Assembly (NCBI RefSeq): GCF_002906165.1
Contig: NZ_PPCN01000001.1
Span: forward strand, 1,178,001 to 1,242,000
Direction of reading: 5' to 3'
Length of the DNA stretch: 64,000 bases
DNA from: Roseibium marinum
Lineage (GTDB): Bacteria > Pseudomonadota > Alphaproteobacteria > Rhizobiales > Stappiaceae
The notes under the pieces are model-generated. The model was given only the letters and a program-made list of their open reading frames with translations. It was not told where the DNA came from and ran no database searches. Made by a program: the position numbers and the translations under genes. Below are positions 4,556-56,670 of the stretch, one piece after another (position 1 is the first letter of the stretch; each line of letters begins with the position of its first letter).

Positions 4556-4999
4556 TTAATTTCTCATCTCCGGCATTGAAGCTATCTGCGTTCCTACCAG
4601 GATGGTTTCCAGCGTCTGCGTGTTGAGACTGTCGACAAACGCCTCCGCGGCCCGCGCCATGGCGCCTTTCAAGGCGCAGCGGGGCAGGAAGGCGCAGGTT
4701 GCCGGTTCAGGCTTCAGGCAGGCCACCACGCCGAGATCCGGTTCCATCAGCCGGACGACATCGCCAATGCGGATCGCGGCCGGATCTTGCGCAAGCCTTA
4801 TGCCGCCGCCACGGCCACGGGTGGTCTCCAGATAGCCGCCCTTCGCCAGATGGGCGACGATTTTCATCACATGGGAATGGGCAAGGCCCAGCCGTTCGGT
4901 CAGTCCACCCACCGTTTGCGGACCGTCGCACTGGCCGGTCGCCATCAGGATTCTCAAGGCGAAGTCGCTGGCCTGGCTGAGGCGCATGTCGGGGTCCAT
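4556..4999 (-). CDS. nsrR: Rrf2 family regulator, NsrR-like nitric oxide sensor
   Basis: 147 residues: N-terminal winged HTH beginning MRLSQASDFALRIL, a linker, and three cysteines spaced C-x7-C-x5-C (residues 90, 98 and 104 counted from the MRLS methionine), in the position of the NsrR Fe-S ligands. NsrR represses nitrosative-stress genes until NO damages its cluster. It is divergent from a group III truncated globin gene, and an NsrR-type operator lies between them, which supports the assignment. The start may instead be the internal ATG at 4987; neither start has a good ribosome site. IscR is less likely because its Cys spacing differs. Confidence 0.8.
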   Translation of the reverse strand: MDPDMRLSQASDFALRILMATGQCDGPQTVGGLTERLGLAHSHVMKIVAHLAKGGYLETTRGRGGGIRLAQDPAAIRIGDVVRLMEPDLGVVACLKPEPATCAFLPRCALKGAMARAAEAFVDSLNTQTLETILVGTQIASMPEMRN

Positions 5000-5048
5000 T
5001 GAATATTCATCTGATATGTTGATTTTAGCGCGGTGATGTGAGATTTAA

Positions 5049-5071
5049 AAGATGCATTTAATATGAATGTT
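5049..5071. promoter_or_regulatory. Putative NsrR operator in the nsrR-globin intergenic region
   Basis: The left half AAGATGCATTT is an exact NsrR half-site; the right half ATATGAATGTT is a near-inverted copy one base away. It ends 11 bp before the globin ATG. A weaker match on the other strand (AGATGAATATT-like, around 5001-5012) sits next to the nsrR start, which suggests dual control and autoregulation. Confidence 0.65.
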
Positions 5072-5082
5072 TGGAGGCGATC

Positions 5083-5598
5083 ATGAATCCGCGCAATTAC
5101 GGTCCGAAATCCGATCAGGCTCCCGTCGCCCGCCGGCACCGGGCTGCGGACGACGGCGGAGATCGGCTGCTGCGCTATGAAAGCGTGAGCGAAGGCTCCA
5201 TTCGCGTCATGGTGCAAACGTTTTACGGCTGTATCCGGGAGCATCCGCGCCTCGGAGAGATCTTCTCGCGCCGCCTGGAAGGCCGGTGGGACGAGCACCT
5301 CTTGAAAATGGAGAGTTTCTGGCAATCCGTTCTTCTGAAGAACGGAGCCTACAAGGGAAAGCCCGTCCCGGCCCATATGAAGCAGAAGGAACTGGTCAGC
5401 TCCGATTACGGCGAATGGCTGACAGTGTTCCGTCCGGTCGTGCGCGAGCTTTATGTCCCGGACCTTGCCGACGAAATCATCATGGTTGCCGAACGCATCG
5501 CTCAGAGCCTCTGGCTGGCGACCTTCGGTTTTGCGGCGGCCACCCCGCCGCCCGAGCTTTCCATGACGACCAGCGAATGGAGCGGATCAAGCCGGTAG
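5083..5598 (+). CDS. Group III truncated hemoglobin
   Basis: 171 residues; the 2/2 globin fold runs from about residue 38 to 160 after a disordered N-terminus. The helix B segment TFY (46-48), a proximal His in PAHMK (H98) and the conserved Trp in YGEWL (W112) match class III trHbs such as Campylobacter Ctb. These cytoplasmic heme proteins bind O2 and NO and contribute to NO or peroxide detoxification. The start chosen is ATG 5083 behind GGAGG; an upstream in-frame TTG is unlikely. Adjacency to an NsrR-like gene and operator argues for NO-induced expression. Confidence 0.85.
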   Translation: MNPRNYGPKSDQAPVARRHRAADDGGDRLLRYESVSEGSIRVMVQTFYGCIREHPRLGEIFSRRLEGRWDEHLLKMESFWQSVLLKNGAYKGKPVPAHMKQKELVSSDYGEWLTVFRPVVRELYVPDLADEIIMVAERIAQSLWLATFGFAAATPPPELSMTTSEWSGSSR

Positions 5599-5760
5599 CC
5601 GCCATGCTTTGGCGGAAGTTCCTGTCGGCGTCTGGTCAACGGCGCTCTTCCCGCTGTGGATCATGGCGCTTCTGCTGCACCGAATGACCTGACAAGCCTT
5701 GTGATCTTCTCACCTGCCGTTAGTCTTCGCCGAGCATTTGAAAAAACGGGGAGTTCAGGC

Positions 5761-6147
5761 GTGAGCGACGACAAGCCGACCGGCGAACTGACACTGCGCA
5801 CCATGGCCATGCCATCCGACACCAATGCCTCCGGCGACATTTTCGGCGGCTGGGTGCTGTCGCAGATGGATCTGGCGGGCGGCATTGCCGCGGGACAAAG
5901 AGCCCAGGGGCGCGTGGTGACCATCGCGGTCGACAAGATGAAATTCATCCGCCCCGTCCAGGTCGGTGACGTATTGTGTGTCTACGCCGAAGTGATCCGC
6001 GTCGGCAACTCGTCCATGGAAATCAAGCTGGTATGCTGGGCCCTGCGCCACCGCTACGGTCATCGGGAAAAGGTCACCGAGGCGGTTTTCACAATGGTCG
6101 CCGTCGACGACACAGGCAAGCCGCGCCCGGTGCCGAAAGAGCTCTGA
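5761..6147 (+). CDS. YciA-like acyl-CoA thioesterase (hotdog fold)
   Basis: 128 residues covering one hotdog domain. The segment MPSDTNASGDIFGGWVLSQM with the following D-x-A-G-G is the diagnostic N-terminal block of YciA/Acot-type thioesterases, with the catalytic Asp in SD-N-GDIFGG. The enzyme hydrolyses acyl-CoA thioesters in the cytoplasm. Start is GTG at 5761 behind GGGGAG; longer in-frame extensions lack a ribosome site. It stands alone between the globin gene and a convergent small gene. Confidence 0.85.
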   Translation: MSDDKPTGELTLRTMAMPSDTNASGDIFGGWVLSQMDLAGGIAAGQRAQGRVVTIAVDKMKFIRPVQVGDVLCVYAEVIRVGNSSMEIKLVCWALRHRYGHREKVTEAVFTMVAVDDTGKPRPVPKEL

Positions 6148-6161
6148 ACGGGACTAAACAC

Positions 6162-6458
6162 CTAGCGCCGCTGCCGGTTGACGATGTCGGCAACAAGATC
6201 CTCGTCCACCGCGCAGGTGCAGCCGTTCGCCCAGAGCCGCAGCAGGTCCTTCAGACGCTGGATCCGTTCCTCCGGCCCAAGCGGGGCCTTGTGATGCGGA
6301 AGCCTTCCGATGAGACGCATGGACTTGATACGCGCCAGAACGCAATCTTCCGCCGCCTGTTCCCATATTTCGGCACTGGCGATTTCGTGCGGTGGATGTC
6401 CGGCGATCAGATCCGCCGCGCGTCCGGCAAAAGGCTGTTGAGACAAAAAATCCTCCAT
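6162..6458 (-). CDS. Small hypothetical protein
   Basis: 98 residues with a plausible soluble composition: helical, with a basic C-terminus (VADIVNRQRR) and a Cys pair C-x-C near residue 80. It converges on the thioesterase gene with 14 bp between stops. There is no clear ribosome site before the ATG. I do not recognise the family. It could be real because codon usage resembles the neighbourhood and nothing competes on the other strand. Confidence 0.45.
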   Translation of the reverse strand: MEDFLSQQPFAGRAADLIAGHPPHEIASAEIWEQAAEDCVLARIKSMRLIGRLPHHKAPLGPEERIQRLKDLLRLWANGCTCAVDEDLVADIVNRQRR

Positions 6459-6765
6459 CGGTTGCCCGAGGAGGACTGGCGCATGAAAGTAAACCGCTTA
6501 GTTGCCGGTCAGCCTCTCTTGAGGGTCAGTCCGGCCGCATCCCTGTTGCGGAAACCACCTTGCCCGGTCAGGCAGGTTGGCGAGGGCGCCAGCCCTTCTC
6601 TTGATGAGGACGCGTTTATGTCATGACTTCCTTCGCCTGACAAGGGGCTCTTGGCAAGCACGGGAAGACATGGCACTTCTTGCGAAGGGAACCGCGGCAG
6701 ACGGGAACCCCTACAGACTGGCACGTAGTCCGCAAGCCGGATTGAAACGAAGGAAAAGATCACCT
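6459..6765. other. 307-bp intergenic region
   Basis: No convincing gene. Open frames on both strands lack ribosome sites and protein-like composition. It presumably holds the promoters for the divergent small gene and the YoaK gene. Confidence 0.4.
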
Positions 6766-7521
6766 GTGTCGGACAATTCGGACTCGCAGCGCAGCCACTC
6801 TCTCGTGCCGGTCCTGCTCGCTTTTTGTGCCTGCTTTGTCGATGTGGTCTGCATTATCGGCCTTTTCCACACCTTCACCGCCTTCATTTCCGGTACGCTG
6901 GTCGTGCTTTGCGTGGAAGTGTTTCATCATGCCGAGAACGCGCTCCTGAAGGTGTTCGTGCTGGTGATGTTCCTTGCCGCCACCCTTCTCTGGTATGTTG
7001 TGGTGACGCGGCTGATCCGGCACAAAAAGGTCGCGGTCGGGCACCTGTTCGCGCTCGAAGCCGGCATCGTGGCGGCTTTCATGCTGGTCGCCGGACTTGG
7101 CGATCCGACCGGATCCGGGCCGCTTTCGCCGGTCACCCTCGTCGCCGTCGGGCTCTCCACAATCGCGATGTCGCTTCAGAATGTGATCATGCTGACCATT
7201 TTGAACCATCACGTGCCGACCACCATGATGACGGGCAATTCGCTGAAGCTCGTCCTGGGCCTCGCCGATTATTTCGCCCATCCGGAAAGCCGCACCGGCA
7301 GCCGGGCCATCGTCATTCACCAGATGCTGGTCATATCCGCCTTCGCCGTGGGCGGGCTGCTGGCCAGTTTCCTGTTCACCTATCTGGGTTTCTGGGTCCT
7401 GGCCGTGCCGGTCGCGGTACTTCTTGTGCTTGCGGTACAGCAATCTGCTTTCGAAGGCGTCGACCATATGGAAAGCGCCGGGGAAGACAGCGCCGTTGGA
7501 GCCCCGGTCTCCACGGAATAG
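6766..7521 (+). CDS. YoaK family (DUF1275) membrane protein
   Basis: 251 residues with six hydrophobic segments. The features DVVCIIGLFHTFTAFISG, SLQNVIM, and TMMTGN followed by a basic/Asn segment are the DUF1275 pattern (D-x2-C/S ... F-A/T-x-M/I-T/S-G-N). These are predicted inner-membrane transporters of unknown substrate. Start is GTG 6766 with GAAGGA about 11 nt upstream; the long upstream extension of the frame is low-complexity and unlikely to be translated. Confidence 0.8.
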   Translation: MSDNSDSQRSHSLVPVLLAFCACFVDVVCIIGLFHTFTAFISGTLVVLCVEVFHHAENALLKVFVLVMFLAATLLWYVVVTRLIRHKKVAVGHLFALEAGIVAAFMLVAGLGDPTGSGPLSPVTLVAVGLSTIAMSLQNVIMLTILNHHVPTTMMTGNSLKLVLGLADYFAHPESRTGSRAIVIHQMLVISAFAVGGLLASFLFTYLGFWVLAVPVAVLLVLAVQQSAFEGVDHMESAGEDSAVGAPVSTE

Positions 7522-7592
7522 GGTCTTCTCCCGTATCCAGCAGACGTTGACGCAACCTGTCTCCGCTTGCCCGGATACACGAGTTTGAGACC

Positions 7593-8321
7593 TCAGGCCT
7601 GTTGCCGGTCCCAGTCGATCCGGCCGTCCACCAGGTGAATGCGCCGTTCCATACGGGCCGCGAGCTCCAGGTCATGGGTCACCGCCACCACGGTGGTTTT
7701 CTGCCTGTCGACGATCTTGCGCAGGCTGTCGAAGACCTGTTCCGTCGCCACGGAATCGAGGCTGCCCGTCGGTTCGTCCGCCAGGATCAGGTCGGGCGAA
7801 TTGGCCAGCGCCCGGGCCACCGCGACACGCTGGCGCTGGCCACCGGAAAGCTGGGCCGGCCGCCGGTGCAGGAAGTCTTCCAGACCGAGATCCGCAAGCA
7901 GCGTCGTTGCATGGTCCAACTGATTCCTGGCCGACAGTTTGCCGAGCTTCTGCATAGGGATCATCACGTTTTCCAGCGTGGTGAATTCGGGCAGCAGGAA
8001 ATGGAACTGGAAGACGAAGCCGAGTTTCTCAAGGCGCATATGCGCCATCTCCGCCGGGGACAGGTCGTCGGTCCGCGCCCCGCCGATAAAAACCTTGCCC
8101 GATGTCGGCCGGTCGAGCAGGCCGAGCAGATAGAGAAGAGAGGATTTGCCGGACCCGGACGGCCCGGTGATCGCCACAAATTCCGACCTGCCGATCTTGA
8201 AGCTGACATCCTTGACGAGGGTTACCGGCACCACCGCCGGAAGGATGCGCGTCAGATCCCTGGCTTCCAGAAGCACGGGCGTCGCGGCCGCCTCGACTGG
8301 AACCTCGGCGGGAAGGCTCAT
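7593..8321 (-). CDS. ABC transporter ATP-binding protein, LolD/MacB type
   Basis: 242 residues. Walker A GPSGSGKS (53-60), Q-loop in FVFQF, signature LSGGQRQR, Walker B LILADEP and the switch His in VTHDLE are all present, so it should hydrolyse ATP. It belongs to the MacB/LolD/DevA group that powers FtsX-type permeases which do not translocate through a classical channel. It is the last gene of a three-gene operon; its ATG overlaps the stop of the permease gene by 4 bp. Confidence 0.9.
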   Translation of the reverse strand: MSLPAEVPVEAAATPVLLEARDLTRILPAVVPVTLVKDVSFKIGRSEFVAITGPSGSGKSSLLYLLGLLDRPTSGKVFIGGARTDDLSPAEMAHMRLEKLGFVFQFHFLLPEFTTLENVMIPMQKLGKLSARNQLDHATTLLADLGLEDFLHRRPAQLSGGQRQRVAVARALANSPDLILADEPTGSLDSVATEQVFDSLRKIVDRQKTTVVAVTHDLELAARMERRIHLVDGRIDWDRQQA

Positions 8322-9556
8322 GTCGCCCCCCTGATGATGTCGACCGGATTGAGCCGTGCGGCCTTGCGCGCCGGGATATAGCCGGCGATGCCGGAGGAGA
8401 AGAGGGCGAGAAGGCAGGCGATGATGTAGTGCGTCCCCGAAAAAAAGATCGGCAGATGCGTCATTTCCACGTCCTGGGTGAACTCGAAGCGGATGGTCGC
8501 CATATAGCTGGAAAGCCCGAAACCGAGCGCGGACCCGGCCAGCGCCCCCAGGATGCCGATGACGAGCCCTTCAAGCACAAAGATCTGCTGGATATCGGCT
8601 TCGGGAAATCCCAGCGACTTGAGGATGGCGATATCGCGGGCCTTTTCGTGGACGATCGTCGAGACGATGTTGAAGATGCCGAAGCCGGCCACCACAAGAA
8701 TTGCGCCGACCACGGTGTACATGATGACGTTTCGGACGAAAAACGCCTCCATCAGGCCTTCGTTGGCTTCCTCCCAGGAGATGGCCTTGTAACCGAGCTG
8801 CCGCTCCGCGCGGGCGGCGACATCGTTGGCTTGGCTGATGTTATTGAGCCGTATGGCGATGCTGTTGATGATGTCGGGCTTTTCCAGAAGGATCTGCACC
8901 GCCTTGAGGGGGGCGTAGGCGAGCCCTTCATCGCTTGTGGTGATGCCGGTATGAAACAGCCCGACGATCTTGAACCGTTTCGCGACCCCGCTCGCCGACG
9001 TCAGCGTCACGGTGTCGCCGACATCCGCACCCAGCCGTTCGGCCGCCTTGTCGCCGATGACAAGCCCGTTCGCCGTGGTTCCCAGGTCCTCGAAAGAGCC
9101 CTTGCGCATGTCGTCCCGGATATTCGATACGCTGAGTTCGCGCTTCGGATCGACACCCGTCAGCGTCATGCCGATGTCCTGGCCGCTGTAGCGCAGCACC
9201 GCCTGTCCGCTCAGCCGCTGAGCCAGCTTGCCGTCGACCCAGTCCCGCAGCGCGGCCAGCGCTTCCGTCGGGTTGCGGATGCCGCGCAGATCCTCTTTCG
9301 GCCGCAACCCGTAATAAGCGACGGCGTCGTAGACCGTGCTGGCCGGCTGCTCGGCGGGCGCGCGCTGTTCGTCGACAATCTCCACATGCGGTATGGCGTC
9401 GATCAGCGTTGCCGTGAAATCGCGCTGCGAGCCTTCCATGAGACTGGCCATGGCAACCGAAAACCCGACGCCGAGCGCCACCCCGAGAACCGAGACCACC
9501 GTCTGCCGCATCCGGGTCCTGATATGGGTCGCCGCGATCCGCAACAGCAGCATCAT
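8318..9556 (-). CDS. ABC transporter permease, FtsX/MacB family
   Basis: 412 residues with one N-terminal membrane helix, a large periplasmic MacB-like domain (about 45-270) and three C-terminal helices. The end, IPARKAARLNPVDIIRG, is the standard coupling tail of MacB/LolCE permeases. It overlaps both neighbours by 4 bp (ATPase downstream, HlyD-type adaptor upstream). With no outer-membrane factor nearby, the exporter probably borrows a TolC-like protein. Substrate unknown; candidates are a lipid, peptide or envelope component. Confidence 0.88.
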   Translation of the reverse strand: MMLLLRIAATHIRTRMRQTVVSVLGVALGVGFSVAMASLMEGSQRDFTATLIDAIPHVEIVDEQRAPAEQPASTVYDAVAYYGLRPKEDLRGIRNPTEALAALRDWVDGKLAQRLSGQAVLRYSGQDIGMTLTGVDPKRELSVSNIRDDMRKGSFEDLGTTANGLVIGDKAAERLGADVGDTVTLTSASGVAKRFKIVGLFHTGITTSDEGLAYAPLKAVQILLEKPDIINSIAIRLNNISQANDVAARAERQLGYKAISWEEANEGLMEAFFVRNVIMYTVVGAILVVAGFGIFNIVSTIVHEKARDIAILKSLGFPEADIQQIFVLEGLVIGILGALAGSALGFGLSSYMATIRFEFTQDVEMTHLPIFFSGTHYIIACLLALFSSGIAGYIPARKAARLNPVDIIRGAT

Positions 9557-47956: not shown

Positions 47957-50900
47957 TCAGATGACGTAGTAAAGGTCGTCCGCGGATTCTGTCATCCAGT
48001 CCGTCATGCGGTCGAATGTCATCGGTCTGGCGATCAGATATCCCTGGATCGAAAAATCGCCCATCATCCGCAGGCGGTCATACTGCGCTTCCGTTTCCAC
48101 CCCTTCGCAAACGATGCCGATATTCAGGGACCGCGCGAGATGGATGAGCTGGTTGACAACAGCTTCCTTTTTCGGGTCCTGGAGCATCTGGTTGGTGAAT
48201 GATTTGTCGATCTTCAGTCCGTTTATCGGCAGGTCGGCAACATGGGTCAAAGAGGCGTAACCGGTCCCGAAATCGTCCAGTTCGATATGAACACCGAGAT
48301 CGTAAAGCTCCTCGAGTGCCTCCAGGTGCCCGGACCGGTTGTCGCTCAGGAAGACGGATTCCAGCACTTCCGCGGTGATCCGCTCAGGTCCGATATTGTA
48401 TTTCACCATCGCTTCCTTGAAGTGCTCCGCGAGCAGGCCGGAAGCCAGATGGGAGGGGGAAATATTGATGGACACCCGACCGAAGTCGAGACGCGAATCC
48501 AGCCAGTGCCTTGCCGCGGCCAGCGCGGTGTCGATGACGATCCTGCCCAGAACGGGTGCGAGGCTGGTCTTTTCGACAATCGGGAGAAACTCGGCGGGAG
48601 ACAGCAGTCCGCGTTCGGGATGCTCCCATCGGACCAGCGCCTCAACACCCGTGATTGACTGGGACCTGAGATTCACCTGGGGCTGGAAGACCAGAATGAA
48701 CTGATCGTTCTTGACTGCGTCATGAAGTTCCAGCTCGACCTTTGCCTCGGCCTCGCTGTCGGTTTTCATGTCTGTCCTGAAGAAGGTGTAACGATCCTTG
48801 CCTTTTTCCTTCGACTGGTAGAGCGCCAGGTCCGCATTCACCAGCAGGGTGTCGAAATCGTTTCCATCCTCCGGACACAGGGCGATACCCATGCTGACCG
48901 TCGGCCAGAACCTTGTGCCGCTGAATTCCATTGGGGCGCGCATGAGCCGGCGTGCGCGTTCGCACAGTTCATTTGGATCCGACGTGCTGCTGTTCGCCAG
49001 AATGACGAATTCATCGCCGCCCCAGCGATAAGCCGTACCGAGCCCGCGGCAGACCTGCCGTAACCTGCGGCCGGTTTCCTCCAGGCAATGGTCGCCGGCA
49101 AGGTGCCCCAACGTATCGTTGACCCGTTTGAACCCGTCCATATCGACATGGGCCAGGAACGCGGGCCGGTCGGAACGGGAGAAGCGGTTTTTCGCATCCC
49201 GCTGGCACCCGGCACGGTTCGACAGCTTGGTCAGCGGGTCGAAATAGGCCAGACGTTCCGCGCGGACCTTTGCCTCACGGGTCTCGTTTTCCCTCTGCAC
49301 ACGTTCGGAAACGTCATTTGCAATGGCGATGAGCAGATCCCTGTCGTCGTTCCTCAAGAGCTGGACCCGCAGGTCGACGGGATATTCCGAACCGTCTTTG
49401 CGCTTGTGAAGACTTTCCACGGAGAGACTTTCCCTGGAGCCGGTCAAAAGAGGTGTCACGTCCCTGCGGATCGACTCCGCGTCATAGACCGGATTGATGT
49501 CCCAGATATGCCGGGACTTGATGTCCTTAAGCCGGTAGCCGAGGTTATTGAGCGCGCATTTGTTCGCGTATTCGATAAGGAAGGTCTGCGTGTTCAGAAT
49601 AAAGATCTCGTTCAGCGAGGACTCCAGAATATTCGCCAGCAGATTGTTCCGTCTCTCGGCGAGGCGGCGCTCGGTAATGTCGTGCAGCGTTCCGATAATC
49701 CTGGCCGCCTTGCCGTCCGCGCCAGCCAGGACGTATCCGCGCACATGCACGTAGCGGACGTCGCCGTGATCCTGGACAAGACTATGCTCGAAATCGAAGT
49801 CTCCGCACACCGCGATCGCCCTCTTGACATGGGCATGTGTCGCGATGAACTCCTTTTCCGGGATCTGCGCATGGACACTGGCCTGGATTTCCTCGGCAGG
49901 CAGGTCTCTGGGAATATTCATGATGCGGTAGAACTCGTCGGTTCCATGAAGTTCGTTTGTCGCGATGTCCCGTTCCCAGCTGCCGACGCCGGCAATACGC
50001 TGTGCTTCAGTCAGCTGAAAGGCACTGTGTTCCAGCTTCCTTGTATTTTCCCGCACTTCCGCCTCCAGGCGTGATGTCGTCCTTTGAACGGAAGATTGCA
50101 GCCTTGACAGCAGACGGTGAATGACGGTCCACGACAGGAGCGCCAGTCCGATGCCCGCCAAGAGCGAAAACAGGGTCTGCTGGGCGAAGACCCAGACATT
50201 GCGGGTGACGTCCTTGACCAGGACGAGTTTGACGGGACGGTCCGTTCCTGTCACGGGAACGGGCAGGTCGCGCAACACATAGATCCTGCGCTCGTGCAAC
50301 AGGACCTTGTTGATGCTGTCAAACCAGCTGAAGCCGGCGATGGAGGCGATATCGGGGCCGCCCGGCACCGGACCGCCGATGTTCTCGTAGTGGAAACTTT
50401 GGCCTTTGAGGCCGTAGCTTTCCCCCGCTTCCGCGACCTTGACGATCTGCGCATCCACCGCGGAGCTCGTAAAGGCCAGCGCGCTCTCGATATCGATTGC
50501 GAGCTTGAGGTAACCAAGCAGCTTGCCGTTGGAAGTCCATGGACGGAAAACACTGACGACGGCCTCTGCGTCCGGTCCGAGTTCAATTCCGCTGGTCCGG
50601 CGGGACAGGTTTGCACTCAGGTCGGACTGAAAGGAGATATCGCGGCTGCCCGGGTGGGGTCCGTGGCGGTCGCCGGCGGTGTCCGGTTCCACCGCACGGA
50701 ATATGAGCTTTTGATCCGCGCCGTAAATCGTGAATTCGGCAATGTGCAGCCCGTCCGGCTTCCGGGCGAAAACGCCGGCCGCGAGTTTTCTGATTTCGGT
50801 AGAATTCTTCTCCCCGATGGCCGTCTGCAGGGCGCTGTCCGTACTGATGGTGCTGACAGCCTGATCGAGCGTTTCGCTACCAAGCGCCTTTTGCCGGGTG

Positions 50901-51271
50901 AGCAGTCTTTCGACCGTCCGCACGAGCTGCTCCTGCGGTTCGCTCATGCTTCGGTAGGCGGAAACGATATTCTGAATGGTCAGGACGGCGACGGTCAGGG
51001 CAAAGATCGACAGAAAGATGTTCCTGAGCGGTTTTTCGAATTGAACATCCTCGCCGCAGCACCACAGCTCAAGAGCCCTGTCGAGGCGCGCGCTGACGCC
51101 CGGAAGCCGATGCTTTCTTCCCTGAGGGCCTTGTCTGTCAGCTGTTTCCTGTTTGCCCACTCGAAATACCCGTGCCCCTGAGCAGCGTATGCTGCGCACC
51201 TTTCGGCCAGATTGTCCGCTGCGTCGCGTTCCACCGGATCGCGGTAGAATGGCACAAACAGCCAATGCCAT
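47957..51271 (-). CDS. GGDEF-EAL c-di-GMP signalling protein with CHASE/CACHE-like sensor and PAS domains
   Basis: About 1104 residues. After a basic 75-residue N-terminus come a membrane helix (about 80-100), a periplasmic sensor (about 100-370), a second helix (about 370-395), two PAS-type domains (about 420-660), GGDEF and EAL. Both catalytic domains look active: RWGGDEFVI; EALVRWEH, DDFGTGYASL, KIDKSF and CEGVET. No RxxD inhibitory site precedes GGDEF. It probably switches between synthesis and hydrolysis in response to an external ligand. The true start may be later, as the first 75 residues look non-protein-like. Confidence 0.9.
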   Translation of the reverse strand: MALAVCAILPRSGGTRRSGQSGRKVRSIRCSGARVFRVGKQETADRQGPQGRKHRLPGVSARLDRALELWCCGEDVQFEKPLRNIFLSIFALTVAVLTIQNIVSAYRSMSEPQEQLVRTVERLLTRQKALGSETLDQAVSTISTDSALQTAIGEKNSTEIRKLAAGVFARKPDGLHIAEFTIYGADQKLIFRAVEPDTAGDRHGPHPGSRDISFQSDLSANLSRRTSGIELGPDAEAVVSVFRPWTSNGKLLGYLKLAIDIESALAFTSSAVDAQIVKVAEAGESYGLKGQSFHYENIGGPVPGGPDIASIAGFSWFDSINKVLLHERRIYVLRDLPVPVTGTDRPVKLVLVKDVTRNVWVFAQQTLFSLLAGIGLALLSWTVIHRLLSRLQSSVQRTTSRLEAEVRENTRKLEHSAFQLTEAQRIAGVGSWERDIATNELHGTDEFYRIMNIPRDLPAEEIQASVHAQIPEKEFIATHAHVKRAIAVCGDFDFEHSLVQDHGDVRYVHVRGYVLAGADGKAARIIGTLHDITERRLAERRNNLLANILESSLNEIFILNTQTFLIEYANKCALNNLGYRLKDIKSRHIWDINPVYDAESIRRDVTPLLTGSRESLSVESLHKRKDGSEYPVDLRVQLLRNDDRDLLIAIANDVSERVQRENETREAKVRAERLAYFDPLTKLSNRAGCQRDAKNRFSRSDRPAFLAHVDMDGFKRVNDTLGHLAGDHCLEETGRRLRQVCRGLGTAYRWGGDEFVILANSSTSDPNELCERARRLMRAPMEFSGTRFWPTVSMGIALCPEDGNDFDTLLVNADLALYQSKEKGKDRYTFFRTDMKTDSEAEAKVELELHDAVKNDQFILVFQPQVNLRSQSITGVEALVRWEHPERGLLSPAEFLPIVEKTSLAPVLGRIVIDTALAAARHWLDSRLDFGRVSINISPSHLASGLLAEHFKEAMVKYNIGPERITAEVLESVFLSDNRSGHLEALEELYDLGVHIELDDFGTGYASLTHVADLPINGLKIDKSFTNQMLQDPKKEAVVNQLIHLARSLNIGIVCEGVETEAQYDRLRMMGDFSIQGYLIARPMTFDRMTDWMTESADDLYYVI

Positions 51272-51436
51272 TTTTCTCAATAGTCGCGAATGGTTAAATT
51301 GTTTTGAACAAGTTTCTTAAAGAGAGTTAATTGGAAGCATTTCAATATTGAAAATTATCGAGAATATTCTCTAATTTCACGGAATTTCAAAGTTAATAAT
51401 AGGTATTAAATAGTATAACTTTAGGTCAGGAACTGA

Positions 51437-52342
51437 TCAGGTTGTAAAAAAATCCAGCAATGCTTGAGTCGTGTGCTCAGGAGATTCTTCAGGGAGAAAG
51501 TGTCCACAGGACAGAACCTCGCCTTTGGCCTGCGGACACCATATCCGCCACATTGCCAGGGGATCCTCCACGCTGCCTGCAATTCCCTTGTCACCCCAAA
51601 GAGCGAGCAGGGGCACGCGGATTCTGTTGCCGGCCTCCAGGTCCGTCCTGTCGTGCTGGTAGTCGACTGTCGCACCTGCCCGGTAGTCCTCGCAAGTGGC
51701 GGAAATCCGGTCCGGATCGCAGAACCAGTTGCGATTGTGGGCGAGCGCATCCTCTGAAAAGCAGGTCAGGGTCTTGTCGCCGGTCCAGCTCGCCAGAGTA
51801 TGTTCCAGGAACCGGATCGGAGACGCCGCGATGAGCTTTTCGGGGAAGGGGGCAGGCTGCGCCAGGAACATCCAGTGATATATCTTCAGCCCGAATTGCC
51901 GGTCCAGCCTGTCCCAGTAATCGGACGTCGGCAGGATGTCGAGGACCGCCAGTTTTTCGACCGCTTCCGGTTTGTCCAGTGCCAGACGGTAGGCTACCCG
52001 TCCGCCGCGGTCGTGCCCGGCGAGAAAGAAACGGCGGTGGCCGAGCACCTGCATCATCTCGGCGACGGCCTCGGCCATGGCACGCTTGGAATAGGCCGCG
52101 TGATCGTCGCTGAGGGGCGGAACGGAGGATCCGCCGTAGCCGGGAAGGTCGGGCAGGACAAGTGTGAAGCGATCCGCGAGGCGCGCTGCGATCTTGTGCC
52201 AGATGACGTGGGATTGCGGATAACCGTGCAAAAGCAGAAGCGGGGGACCGGAACCGCCGACGCGGCAAAACAGCCGGGCGCTCGCGGTCTCCACGGTGAT
52301 GCTTTCAAACCCCGGGAACATATCCGGCAAATTACTTTTCAA
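51437..52342 (-). CDS. Alpha/beta hydrolase, fluoroacetate dehalogenase-like
   Basis: 301 residues. Opening MFPGFESITVETASARLFCR, HGYPQSHVIWHK and the nucleophile elbow GHDRGGRVAY are the fluoroacetate/haloacetate dehalogenase pattern. Asp111 is the nucleophile, R112 and R115 would hold the carboxylate, and D135 and H281 complete the triad. H156, W157, W186 and Y220 match the halide pocket. Every one is offset by exactly one residue from the numbering I recall for the Rhodopseudomonas RPA1163 enzyme. It likely hydrolyses haloacetates to glycolate in the cytoplasm. The region 51272-51436 upstream of it is AT-rich and gene-free. Confidence 0.85.
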   Translation of the reverse strand: MKSNLPDMFPGFESITVETASARLFCRVGGSGPPLLLLHGYPQSHVIWHKIAARLADRFTLVLPDLPGYGGSSVPPLSDDHAAYSKRAMAEAVAEMMQVLGHRRFFLAGHDRGGRVAYRLALDKPEAVEKLAVLDILPTSDYWDRLDRQFGLKIYHWMFLAQPAPFPEKLIAASPIRFLEHTLASWTGDKTLTCFSEDALAHNRNWFCDPDRISATCEDYRAGATVDYQHDRTDLEAGNRIRVPLLALWGDKGIAGSVEDPLAMWRIWCPQAKGEVLSCGHFLPEESPEHTTQALLDFFTT

Positions 52343-52419: not shown

Positions 52420-53697
52420 CTAGCTGTTGTTCTCGCGTTCGATCGCCCGCCAGCCGATATCGGACCGGCAAAAGCCGTCCGGCCAGTCGATCTTCGAGAT
52501 CGCTTCATAGGCGGCCTGCCGGGCCTCAAGGACGCTGGATCCGAGAGCGGTCACGTTCAGAACCCGGCCGCCATTGGCAAGCAGGCGTCCACCTTCCCGC
52601 TTCGTCCCGGCGTGAAAGACTTCAAGCCGGTCGGAGGAAAGCGGGTCCAGGCCACGGATTTCCGTTCCCTTGTCGTAGTTTCCCGGATAGCCATCGGCCG
52701 CCATGACGACGCAGATCGCGGCTTCGTCGCGCCATTGCGCGGAAGCAGTCGCGAGCCTTCCGTCGACGCTGGCAAGGATCAGCTCCAGCAGGTCGCTTTT
52801 CAGCCGCATCATCATCACCTGGCATTCCGGATCGCCGAAGCGGGTGTTGTATTCGATGAGTTTCGGACCGTCCTCGGTCATCATCAGGCCCGCGTAAAGC
52901 ACGCCCTTGAACGGCGTGCCGCGTCCGGCCAGCGTCTCGATTGTCGGTTCGATGATCGTCTTCATGACGTCCGCGATCAGCGGGCCGGTCAGGACGGGCG
53001 CGGGGGAATAGGCACCCATGCCGCCGGTGTTCGGGCCCTCGTCGCCGTCGAAGGCGCGTTTGTGATCCTGTGCGGTTGCCAGCGGCAGGGCGTGCGTGCC
53101 GTCCGACAGCACGAAAAAGCTGGCTTCCTCGCCCTGCAGGAACTCCTCGATGACGACTTCCGCCCCGGCGGCACCGAACGAGCCTTCAAAACAGGCCGTC
53201 ACCGCGTCCTCAGCTTCCTGCAAGGTCATGGCGACGACAACGCCTTTGCCGGCGGCAAGCCCGTCGGCCTTGACGACAATGGGGGCCCCTTTTTCCCGGA
53301 CATAGGCAAAGGCCGCGTCGCGCGTGTCGAAGCGGCCGTAGCCTGCTGTCGGAATGCCGGCTTCGTCACAGACGCCTTTGGTGAAGGCCTTGGAGCCTTC
53401 GAGCTGAGCAGCCGCCCTGCTCGGACCGAAAGCCTTCAGTCCGGCCGCTTCCAGATCGTCCACCAGTCCGGCCACCAGGGGGGCTTCCGGTCCGACCACC
53501 ACGAGGTCGATGCCCTTTGCCCGGCAGAAGTCGATCACTGCCTGATGGTTCGAGACATCCAGATCGCATAGCTCCGCCACCTGGGCGATGCCGGCATTGC
53601 CCGGCGCGGCATAAAGCTTGGTCAGCCGTGGAGATTTCGCCAGCGCCCAGGCCAGGGAGTGTTCGCGGCCACCGGATCCGATGAGGAGAAGTTTCAT
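52420..53697 (-). CDS. purD: Phosphoribosylamine-glycine ligase (GARS)
   Basis: 425 residues, full length: N-terminal [19 protein letters not shown], the ATP-grasp core ([28 protein letters not shown]) and the C-terminal MKSDLLELI region. It makes GAR in the second step of purine synthesis. ATG start at 53697. It stands alone, without other pur genes in this window. Confidence 0.96.
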
Positions 53698-53873: not shown

Positions 53874-54641
53874 TCATCCGCCCACGGTCACGCGGCAGTA
53901 AAGGATATTGTCCATTTCCAGGTCCTGGCCCCAGATCAATCTGGCGCTGCCGTTCCAGGTGATCCGGTCATAGCCGCCCTTGGGGCTGACATCCCCGGCG
54001 CTGTGCACGGTGGCCGCCGGCCAGGAGCTGTCGTCAAAATCCGGGGCCATCCAGTTGGCCGGCGCCGGCGTTACGGTCTGCGCGCAACTGGCGCTGGAGA
54101 CATCCGGCTTGCGGTCGCTCTCACACGACCGGTCGGCCGGTGCCGACTGAACCGTCAGGCAGCGCCAGTCGGATCCTGTCGCGGCCAGAAACCTGCCTGA
54201 GGCGGCATCATGGAACTGGGCGATCGCGCCGCCGTCGCCCATCTGCTGACGGCGGGTGCCTATATATTCAAGGCCGGTATCGTTTTCCATGAAATCGCGG
54301 AACTCGAACGCGATTGTCATCGGCAAATCGGCGTTGAATTCGAACCGTTCGGCATTGAAGGAGCGCTCCGTACGGATGGAGACGCTGTCCTCCAGAAGCG
54401 GCGACCCGTTGATGTAAAGCTTGAACCAGTTGTCCACCCAGACCCCACCGAGGATCCTGTGCGCCCCAGCGGAACTGATCGTGCTTTCATTCAGGTCCTG
54501 TCCCTGGACACCGCGCGGAGGAGGGGCTTTGCCACCCGGTGGCGGCGGCGGCTTCTGTGCGAAGGCTGCAGCCGGGACGGCCGCCAGGGCGACGGCGACG
54601 GTGACAGCGAATTTTGAGGTAAGAATTGCGGAAAGCTTCAC
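53874..54641 (-). CDS. Secreted beta-sandwich protein of unknown function
   Basis: 255 residues from GTG 54641 (GGAG 8 nt upstream; an ATG 12 bp earlier is possible). Signal peptide (about 1-28, AFAQ), a Pro/Gly linker, then a beta-rich domain with WVDNWFKLYING, FEFRDFMENDTGLEY and a late NWMAPDFDDSSWPAA...IWGQDLEMDNILYCRVTV. The DFDDSSW and DN-x4-CR pieces recall galactose-binding-like sandwich proteins. Four to six Cys suggest disulfides. Family not identified. Confidence 0.6.
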   Translation of the reverse strand: MKLSAILTSKFAVTVAVALAAVPAAAFAQKPPPPPGGKAPPPRGVQGQDLNESTISSAGAHRILGGVWVDNWFKLYINGSPLLEDSVSIRTERSFNAERFEFNADLPMTIAFEFRDFMENDTGLEYIGTRRQQMGDGGAIAQFHDAASGRFLAATGSDWRCLTVQSAPADRSCESDRKPDVSSASCAQTVTPAPANWMAPDFDDSSWPAATVHSAGDVSPKGGYDRITWNGSARLIWGQDLEMDNILYCRVTVGG

Positions 54642-54773
54642 AACGTGCTCCATCTGTCGGCCACGATATGGTCACTATGACGCTTTGCGGAACGAAATTC
54701 ACCTCTGCTAGATGTTAAAGTGCCGATGAATACAAGCGGCGGCCGGAAGGGCCGCCGGATCTGCGAATCTCGG

Positions 54774-56045: not shown

Positions 56046-56417
56046 TCATTCAGGCTTGCGTGCGGACTCAGCCAGAAGCCTCGTCAGCATTTTCCTGATG
56101 TGGTTCTGGGCGCCGAAAAAGACTGCGGCCACGAAGATCCTGTTTTGCTCGGGGTAGGCAACGAACCAGACCGCCGCCTGATCGCGGCGCACGAAGCGCA
56201 GACCCGGCAAGATATCGGGCCTGAGCGTGCCGATAAACGGCGTCGCCACGAGGTCGTCAATAGAGGTTTGGATTGCTCTGAGACGTTTCGCTGCGTGTTC
56301 GAAAGCGGACTCCCGGTCTTCTCCCAGGTCGACGTAAGTCAGGAACAGATGGTCGAAGATGAGCTCGAAATCGCGTTCCGCGGCAACCGAATAGTCAAGT
56401 GTCCACACGCAGGCCAC
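56046..56417 (-). CDS. parE: RelE/ParE superfamily toxin
   Basis: 123 residues. The pattern LDYSVAAERDFELIFDHL at the front, ESAFEHAAKRLRAIQTSI in the middle, LRPDILPGLRFVRRDQAAVWFV and a final IFVAAVFFGAQNHIRKML are typical of ParE-type toxins (two helices then a beta sheet). Such toxins poison gyrase; RelE-like mRNA cleavage is less likely because the usual catalytic basic and Tyr residues are not evident. It overlaps the antitoxin gene by 23 bp, antitoxin first. Confidence 0.85.
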   Translation of the reverse strand: MACVWTLDYSVAAERDFELIFDHLFLTYVDLGEDRESAFEHAAKRLRAIQTSIDDLVATPFIGTLRPDILPGLRFVRRDQAAVWFVAYPEQNRIFVAAVFFGAQNHIRKMLTRLLAESARKPE

Positions 56418-56670
56418 GACGTTTTCGCTCGATCATGGTCTCTGTCCGGCGTTCCATGTCCGCTGCCGGAACAGTCTGCCCATGCAGACGCTGTTCGAGG
56501 AGCTCGCGCAAGGCCCGGGCCTCGAGAGACTCCAGCTCGTTTTTTTGACGCAGCAGTTCCAGGCCCTGCTGCAGCACGGAACTGAGGCTTGAGAACTGGC
56601 CGGAGTCCACAAGGGACCGCGCGAAGGCGTCCTGTTGTTCTGTCAGCGAAATTGATGATTTGATGCTCAT
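56395..56670 (-). CDS. parD: ParD-type antitoxin (CopG/Arc-like)
   Basis: 91 residues: N-terminal ribbon-helix-helix (MSIKSSISLTEQQDAFARSL, then SGQFSSLSSVLQQGLELL) and a charged C-terminal helix that would wrap the toxin. The SSLSSVLQQGLELL block is the ParD signature. As in other modules it likely represses its own promoter with the toxin. Upstream lies the proximal repeat and the DUF6101 gene. Confidence 0.85.
   Translation of the reverse strand: MSIKSSISLTEQQDAFARSLVDSGQFSSLSSVLQQGLELLRQKNELESLEARALRELLEQRLHGQTVPAADMERRTETMIERKRRGLRVDT

Follow-up and report, generated by a model that had tools for sequence, protein, structure and literature searches.

The window, by which we mean the whole 64,000-nucleotide stretch of Roseibium marinum DNA analyzed here, contains a gene for a predicted fluoroacetate/haloacetate dehalogenase located directly behind purD on the same strand (Table 1). 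The stop codon of purD lies 77 nt from the TTG start of the dehalogenase gene, and a simple consensus scan found no terminator-like site between the two. A gene for a PAS-GGDEF-EAL signaling protein follows downstream; its place is conserved across the genus, and we propose no part for it in the function of the enzyme. The neighborhood then includes UbiA, patatin, and metallo-hydrolase genes. Upstream of purD is a 259-amino-acid open reading frame (ORF), which is kept there in many, though not all, of the long-flank Roseibium loci. Elsewhere, the window contains a match to a SAM-I/IV riboswitch (60.3 bits versus a gathering score of 41.1) and a ParD-like antitoxin gene that overlaps a 123-amino-acid ORF, perhaps forming a toxin-antitoxin pair.

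Table 1. Features of the window, with positions counted from its first nucleotide
Feature	Position	Strand	Remark
SAM-I/IV riboswitch match	6488..6612	-	
PAS-GGDEF-EAL signaling protein	47957..51280	-	downstream neighbor of the dehalogenase gene
Predicted fluoroacetate/haloacetate dehalogenase (RPA1163-type alpha/beta hydrolase)	51437..52342	-	301 amino acids plus stop, TTG start
H281 codon	51500..51502	-	catalytic base (RPA1163 H280)
Y220 codon	51683..51685	-	halide pocket (RPA1163 Y219)
W186 codon	51785..51787	-	RPA1163 W185
H156 and W157 codons	51872..51877	-	halide pocket (RPA1163 H155, W156)
D135 codon	51938..51940	-	catalytic-triad acid (RPA1163 D134)
R119 codon	51986..51988	-	third arginine of DRXXRXXXR (motif as given in PMC7429986)
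R115 codon	51998..52000	-	second carboxylate-binding arginine
D111 and R112 codons	52007..52012	-	nucleophile and carboxylate-binding arginine, start of DRXXRXXXR; position by arithmetic from the ORF start
purD (phosphoribosylamine-glycine ligase)	52420..53697	-	Pfam GARS_N/GARS_A/GARS_C; directly upstream of the dehalogenase gene
259-amino-acid ORF	53874..54653	-	no Pfam match
123-amino-acid ORF	56046..56417	-	no match in Pfam at 1e-3; may form a toxin-antitoxin pair with the next feature (56046..56670)
ParD-like antitoxin	56395..56670	-	

For the dehalogenase gene, TTG is the likelier start codon, since the nearest ATG falls at codon 8, where most aligned relatives have Leu. A GGAG motif, noted by eye, lies 6 nt 5' of the TTG. 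When the protein is searched against its own genome, it finds itself (G000:C1:1229440-1230342), and the next best match reaches just 26% identity. Its Pfam class is the general Abhydrolase_1, and NCBIfam gives it no name because none of the curated models among the best 25 of 27 matches passes its cutoff. An earlier note on this DNA, made from the letters alone, had placed it in a probable marine alphaproteobacterium. This placement agrees with nine related genome loci from Roseibium, Labrenzia, and Stappia (NCBI order Hyphomicrobiales), whose proteins are 69 to 88% identical to the window protein and are already included in the genus orthologues counted below.

The best PDB match of the window protein is RPA1163 (PDB entry 3r3u), with an ungapped alignment of query residues 4 to 300 to chain residues 5 to 301 (E value of 6.4e-114, 383 bits; 164 identities in 297 columns, or 55% identity). 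All twelve top PDB matches are named fluoroacetate dehalogenase. Full-length homology at an E value of 6e-114 rules out a chance resemblance to RPA1163, and the segments flanking the active site are nearly identical in the two proteins (KIYHW and GHFLPEE, for example, occur in both). An AlphaFold2 model of the window protein, built from an 18-row alignment, has a mean pLDDT of 94 (range of 72 to 94 across five models) and superposes on crystal structures of RPA1163 with root mean square deviations of 0.7 to 1.0 Å and Z scores of 48.5 to 51.2.

The earlier note had listed D111, R112, R115, D135, H156, W157, W186, Y220, and H281 as a complete fluoroacetate dehalogenase active site, each residue one position above its counterpart in RPA1163. 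A letter-by-letter check found all nine, and R119 is also present, completing the DRXXRXXXR motif and a ten-residue site. In the alignment to RPA1163 these residues match, and both the sequence and structural alignments bear out the constant offset of +1, which is real because model residues 1 to 301 pair with chain residues 0 to 300 in both 3r3u and 5t4t. For RPA1163, PMC11022551 gives the positions D110, D134, H155, W156, Y219, and H280; the numbering of Trp185 is taken from PDB titles, and R111 and R114 would correspond to Arg105 and Arg108, described for FA1 in PMC11022551. The same source names Asp110-His280-Asp134 as the catalytic triad and His155, Trp156, and Tyr219 as the residues that stabilize the leaving fluoride. 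As expected of an RPA1163-type fluoroacetate dehalogenase (EC 3.8.1.3), the window protein combines a predicted alpha/beta-hydrolase fold and an Asp-His-Asp triad (D111, H281, and D135) with two carboxylate-holding arginines (R112 and R115) within DRXXRXXXR, whose third arginine is R119, and a His-Trp-Tyr halide pocket (H156, W157, and Y220). The pocket residues, on whose superposition the earlier claim had been made to depend, do superpose on those of RPA1163.

We consider it very improbable that the protein is instead an epoxide hydrolase or a generic esterase of the same fold. The general Pfam class would accommodate such an enzyme, and Pseudomonas aeruginosa chains titled "probable epoxide hydrolase," some of them crystallized with monofluoroacetate according to their PDB titles, score 264 to 267 bits against the window protein. 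Among the best 60 PDB matches listed, however, epoxide hydrolases other than these P. aeruginosa chains score about 120 bits or less, versus 383 bits for RPA1163. The nucleophile, D111, is an Asp rather than the Ser of esterases, and it is followed by R112 rather than by the aromatic residue expected after the catalytic Asp of an epoxide hydrolase. The window protein also has DRXXRXXXR, which, as described in PMC7429986, sets fluoroacetate dehalogenases apart from epoxide hydrolases, the latter being without it. An HGXP motif with an aromatic residue at X (HGYP in the window protein) does not decide the matter, because RPA1163 has one too (HGFP).

To gauge how telling the residue set is, we turned to a class-wide sample, in which 103 of 385 alphaproteobacterial genomes contain homologues at an E value of ≤1e-40. 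Apart from the window's own, 129 family places from the sample were listed (two of which end before Y220). All ten site residues are present in 90 of the 129, and all but position 186 match in 116; the His-Trp pair is retained in 119 and Trp157 in 126. The ten-residue set therefore marks a large family rather than one gene. Position 186 also varies among solved enzymes, as the fluoroacetate dehalogenase 9c9f has Arg there. The earlier note had held that complete conservation at a constant offset strongly suggests hydrolysis of carbon-fluorine bonds or other haloacetates. Given the RPA1163 alignment and the superposed pocket, this remains the best-supported reading of the protein, but the residue set by itself does not discriminate. 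Within the genus, the site is complete in all 41 other orthologues and in none of the five paralogues. These paralogues constitute a second, diverged family member (40 to 45% identity) found in 5 of 45 Roseibium genomes (L095, L096, L097, L098, and L099); four of them have an altered halide pocket, where the His-Trp pair has become Trp-Trp or Tyr-Phe.

Orthology to RPA1163, as judged from a tree and from gene neighborhood, is a stronger argument than the residue set. In a maximum-likelihood tree of a selection of 99 proteins, with FA1 not included and the bootstrap not fully settled, the window protein falls in a 40-row clade with support of 100/99. The clade also holds 11 Roseibium orthologues, all 22 proteins of the 20 order loci, and RPA1163, together with four additional rows from the order and a single row from elsewhere. 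Quick and careful trees agree on this clade. RPA1163's group is the sister of the Roseibium group (support of 99/92), while DehH1, NOS0089, DAR3835, D4B (9c9f), and the Salmonella protein 4nvr all fall outside. Together with the purD neighborhood common to both groups, the clade makes the window gene very probably the Roseibium orthologue of RPA1163.

On this evidence, we assign a probability of about 0.88 to the reading that the window gene encodes an Asp-nucleophile alpha/beta-hydrolase haloacetate (fluoroacetate) dehalogenase orthologous to RPA1163. The predicted fold, the residues, the orthology, and the conserved position come from the present analysis; activity on fluoroacetate and chloroacetate would be expected from the characterized orthologue. 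In the proposed mechanism, R112 and R115 would hold the carboxylate of a 2-haloacetate while D111 attacks the alpha carbon of the anchored substrate and displaces the halide, which would enter the pocket formed by H156, W157, and Y220. H281, paired with D135, would then activate water, and hydrolysis of the aspartyl ester would leave glycolate and halide as the products. Evidence from residues and orthology bears on what the enzyme can do, not on what it is for.

For the latter question, the position of the gene is more informative. A dehalogenase orthologue is present in 42 of 45 Roseibium genomes (three are without it), with 57 to 88% identity to the window protein when its own match is excepted. 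In all 41 other genomes with the gene, purD immediately precedes it on the same strand, and the GGDEF-EAL gene is downstream. Because these 41 orthologues have the same neighborhood, a recently acquired or mobile catabolic gene can be rejected for the genus. Matches to the protein occur in 346 plasmid records at an E value of ≤1e-30, every one below 60% identity, and in one phage record at 28.5% identity.

The arrangement extends well beyond the genus. Order-wide, 197 of 397 genomes contain a match at an E value of ≤1e-60, and purD was located in the 132 best-scoring of the 190 such genomes from outside the genus. In 85 of the 132, it precedes the dehalogenase gene on the same strand by no more than 400 nt, and in 113 it lies within 6 kb. 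Among the 80 best-scoring genomes, the respective numbers are 59 (from 18 families) and 77; for the next 52, they are 26 and 36. As close linkage drops to 26 of 52 at lower scores, it is a trait of the orthologue group rather than of all homologues. In four of these 52 genomes, the two genes are more than 200 kb apart, and in 15 of the 132 (3 of the best 80 and 12 of the next 52) they are on different contigs, a split that does not prove a lack of linkage when assemblies are drafts. In the class-wide loci with short flanks (L025 to L053), purD adjoins the gene only in L025 and L026, both from the same order. Two order genomes have tandem dehalogenase copies (L223, positions 6619 to 8429, and L226, positions 4886 to 6827); those of L223 directly follow purD, and in one tandem copy W186 and Y220 are replaced by Gly and Phe.

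In all eight loci nearest RPA1163, three of them encoding proteins 97 to 98% identical to it, purD is the upstream neighbor, and we infer the same gene order for R. palustris CGA009 itself. From its position, the dehalogenase gene is probably a vertically kept core gene and probably cotranscribed with purD. Among 20 order loci, the 16 with adjacent purD were inspected closely; in seven of them, a possible dehalogenase start lies 1 to 17 nt before the end of purD, although two of the seven have another possible start after it. Arguing against cotranscription, the 77-nt gap in the window exceeds that of many relatives, and nine of the best-scoring 80 order genomes, all from one family, have purD 2 to 6 kb away on the opposite strand. 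Cotranscription and an everyday role are accordingly less sure than the type of enzyme. A literature search for work joining purD with fluoroacetate or haloacetate dehalogenases, with most subscription journals outside its reach, returned nothing except an incidental match to an author name. The purD linkage is the new part of this work, and the enzymology is of a known kind.

Such linkage raises the tentative alternative that dehalogenation is not what the enzyme natively does and that the purD-linked clade uses an endogenous small carboxylate or ester, haloacetate cleavage being accidental. In keeping with this idea, the gene is widely conserved next to a housekeeping gene, apparently by vertical descent, possible starts lie within purD, and 197 of the 397 genomes from the order contain homologues, a number higher than known fluoroacetate sources would suggest. 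However, the site is specialized for a halide leaving group, with all 22 order proteins keeping the pocket His and Trp and 19 of them the full ten-residue set, and no candidate endogenous substrate was found for the clade. In a more specific and equally doubtful form, RPA1163-type dehalogenases may be ancient operon partners of purD across Hyphomicrobiales, their native substrate being an unrecognized central or purine-linked metabolite or by-product and carbon-fluorine cleavage a by-product of that activity.

Using pUO1 as a positive control, we scanned 14 neighboring ORFs with Pfam (four had no match) and found no CrcB, thioesterase, or methyltransferase among them. The one CrcB gene in the genome is on another contig, and fluoride riboswitches were found neither in the window nor in the genome at an E value of ≤1e-3. 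A utilization or resistance cluster of the type known from pUO1 and Caballeronia S22, where CrcB, a fluoroacetyl-CoA thioesterase, and an aconitate methyltransferase adjoin the dehalogenase, was rejected, as none of these helper genes was found beside the window gene in that scan. The setting of the gene does not look like that of a dedicated fluoroacetate pathway, since almost every genome of the genus has it behind purD and no fluoride or fluoroacetate helpers were found nearby.

That no fluoride-specific genes were found nearby also suits a further possibility, to which we give somewhat less than even odds: the enzyme may be a haloacid dehalogenase whose real substrates are marine bromo-, chloro-, and iodoacetate, with fluoroacetate cleavage surviving as a secondary ability of that pocket. 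Marine organohalogens would, however, leave the purD linkage unexplained, since it is common to RPA1163's own group, which we take not to be marine. The genome also encodes one HAD type II dehalogenase above the cutoff; enzymes of the HAD type, with which PMC12184663 deals, differ in fold from the window protein. PMC5843722 describes strong dehalogenation potential in a Labrenzia genome and suggests that marine organohalogens are the reason, and according to PMC11022551, characterized fluoroacetate dehalogenases also take chloroacetate and some take bromo- or iodoacetate. Against this, W157 is conserved in all 41 other genus orthologues, and its FA1 counterpart is required for C-F but not C-Cl cleavage (PMC11022551).

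Returning to the predicted RPA1163-type dehalogenase, its place as a purD-linked, vertically kept core gene makes general haloacid clearance, or an unrecognized small-carboxylate substrate, a more likely everyday role than growth on fluoroacetate. Taken as such, the window gene merely adds to the known orthologues of RPA1163; the position behind purD matters more, as it points to a routine function rather than to a specialization in fluorinated poisons. The linkage also makes the purpose of the enzyme genetically testable in R. palustris or Roseibium. By the same token, the label "fluoroacetate dehalogenase" on many alphaproteobacterial genes should be read as a statement of capacity, not of lifestyle.

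Among known systems, the P. aeruginosa "putative epoxide hydrolase" (4B9A/4B9E) shares the fold and 44% identity with the window protein. Its PDB titles include T131D and Q244E mutants and bound monofluoroacetate, whereas the triad acid of the window protein is D135; crystallization of these mutants and of the bound compound hints that not every relative turns over fluoroacetate. NOS0089 (Alr0039; 51% identity) and DAR3835 (Daro3835; 45%) have the same site residues, and PMC11022551 reports fluoroacetate/difluoroacetate activity for both, but they lie outside the purD-linked clade. FAc-DEX FA1 (1y37) superposes on the window model at 1.3 Å. DehH1 (H-1) of plasmid pUO1 belongs to the same superfamily and has the same ten site residues, but it is only about 39% identical and falls outside the RPA1163 clade. 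On pUO1, it is clustered with genes for a methyltransferase and a thioesterase as well as with crcB, and PMC11812338 describes the same combination for the dehalogenase of Caballeronia S22; the scan of the window gene's neighbors turned up none of the three. The closest comparison is RPA1163 of Rhodopseudomonas palustris CGA009 (3R3U). It differs in its host and in 45% of its residues, and activity of the Roseibium protein is a prediction. The two share 55% identity, all site residues, the predicted fold, and a clade, and loci encoding proteins nearly identical to RPA1163 have the gene in the same place behind purD.
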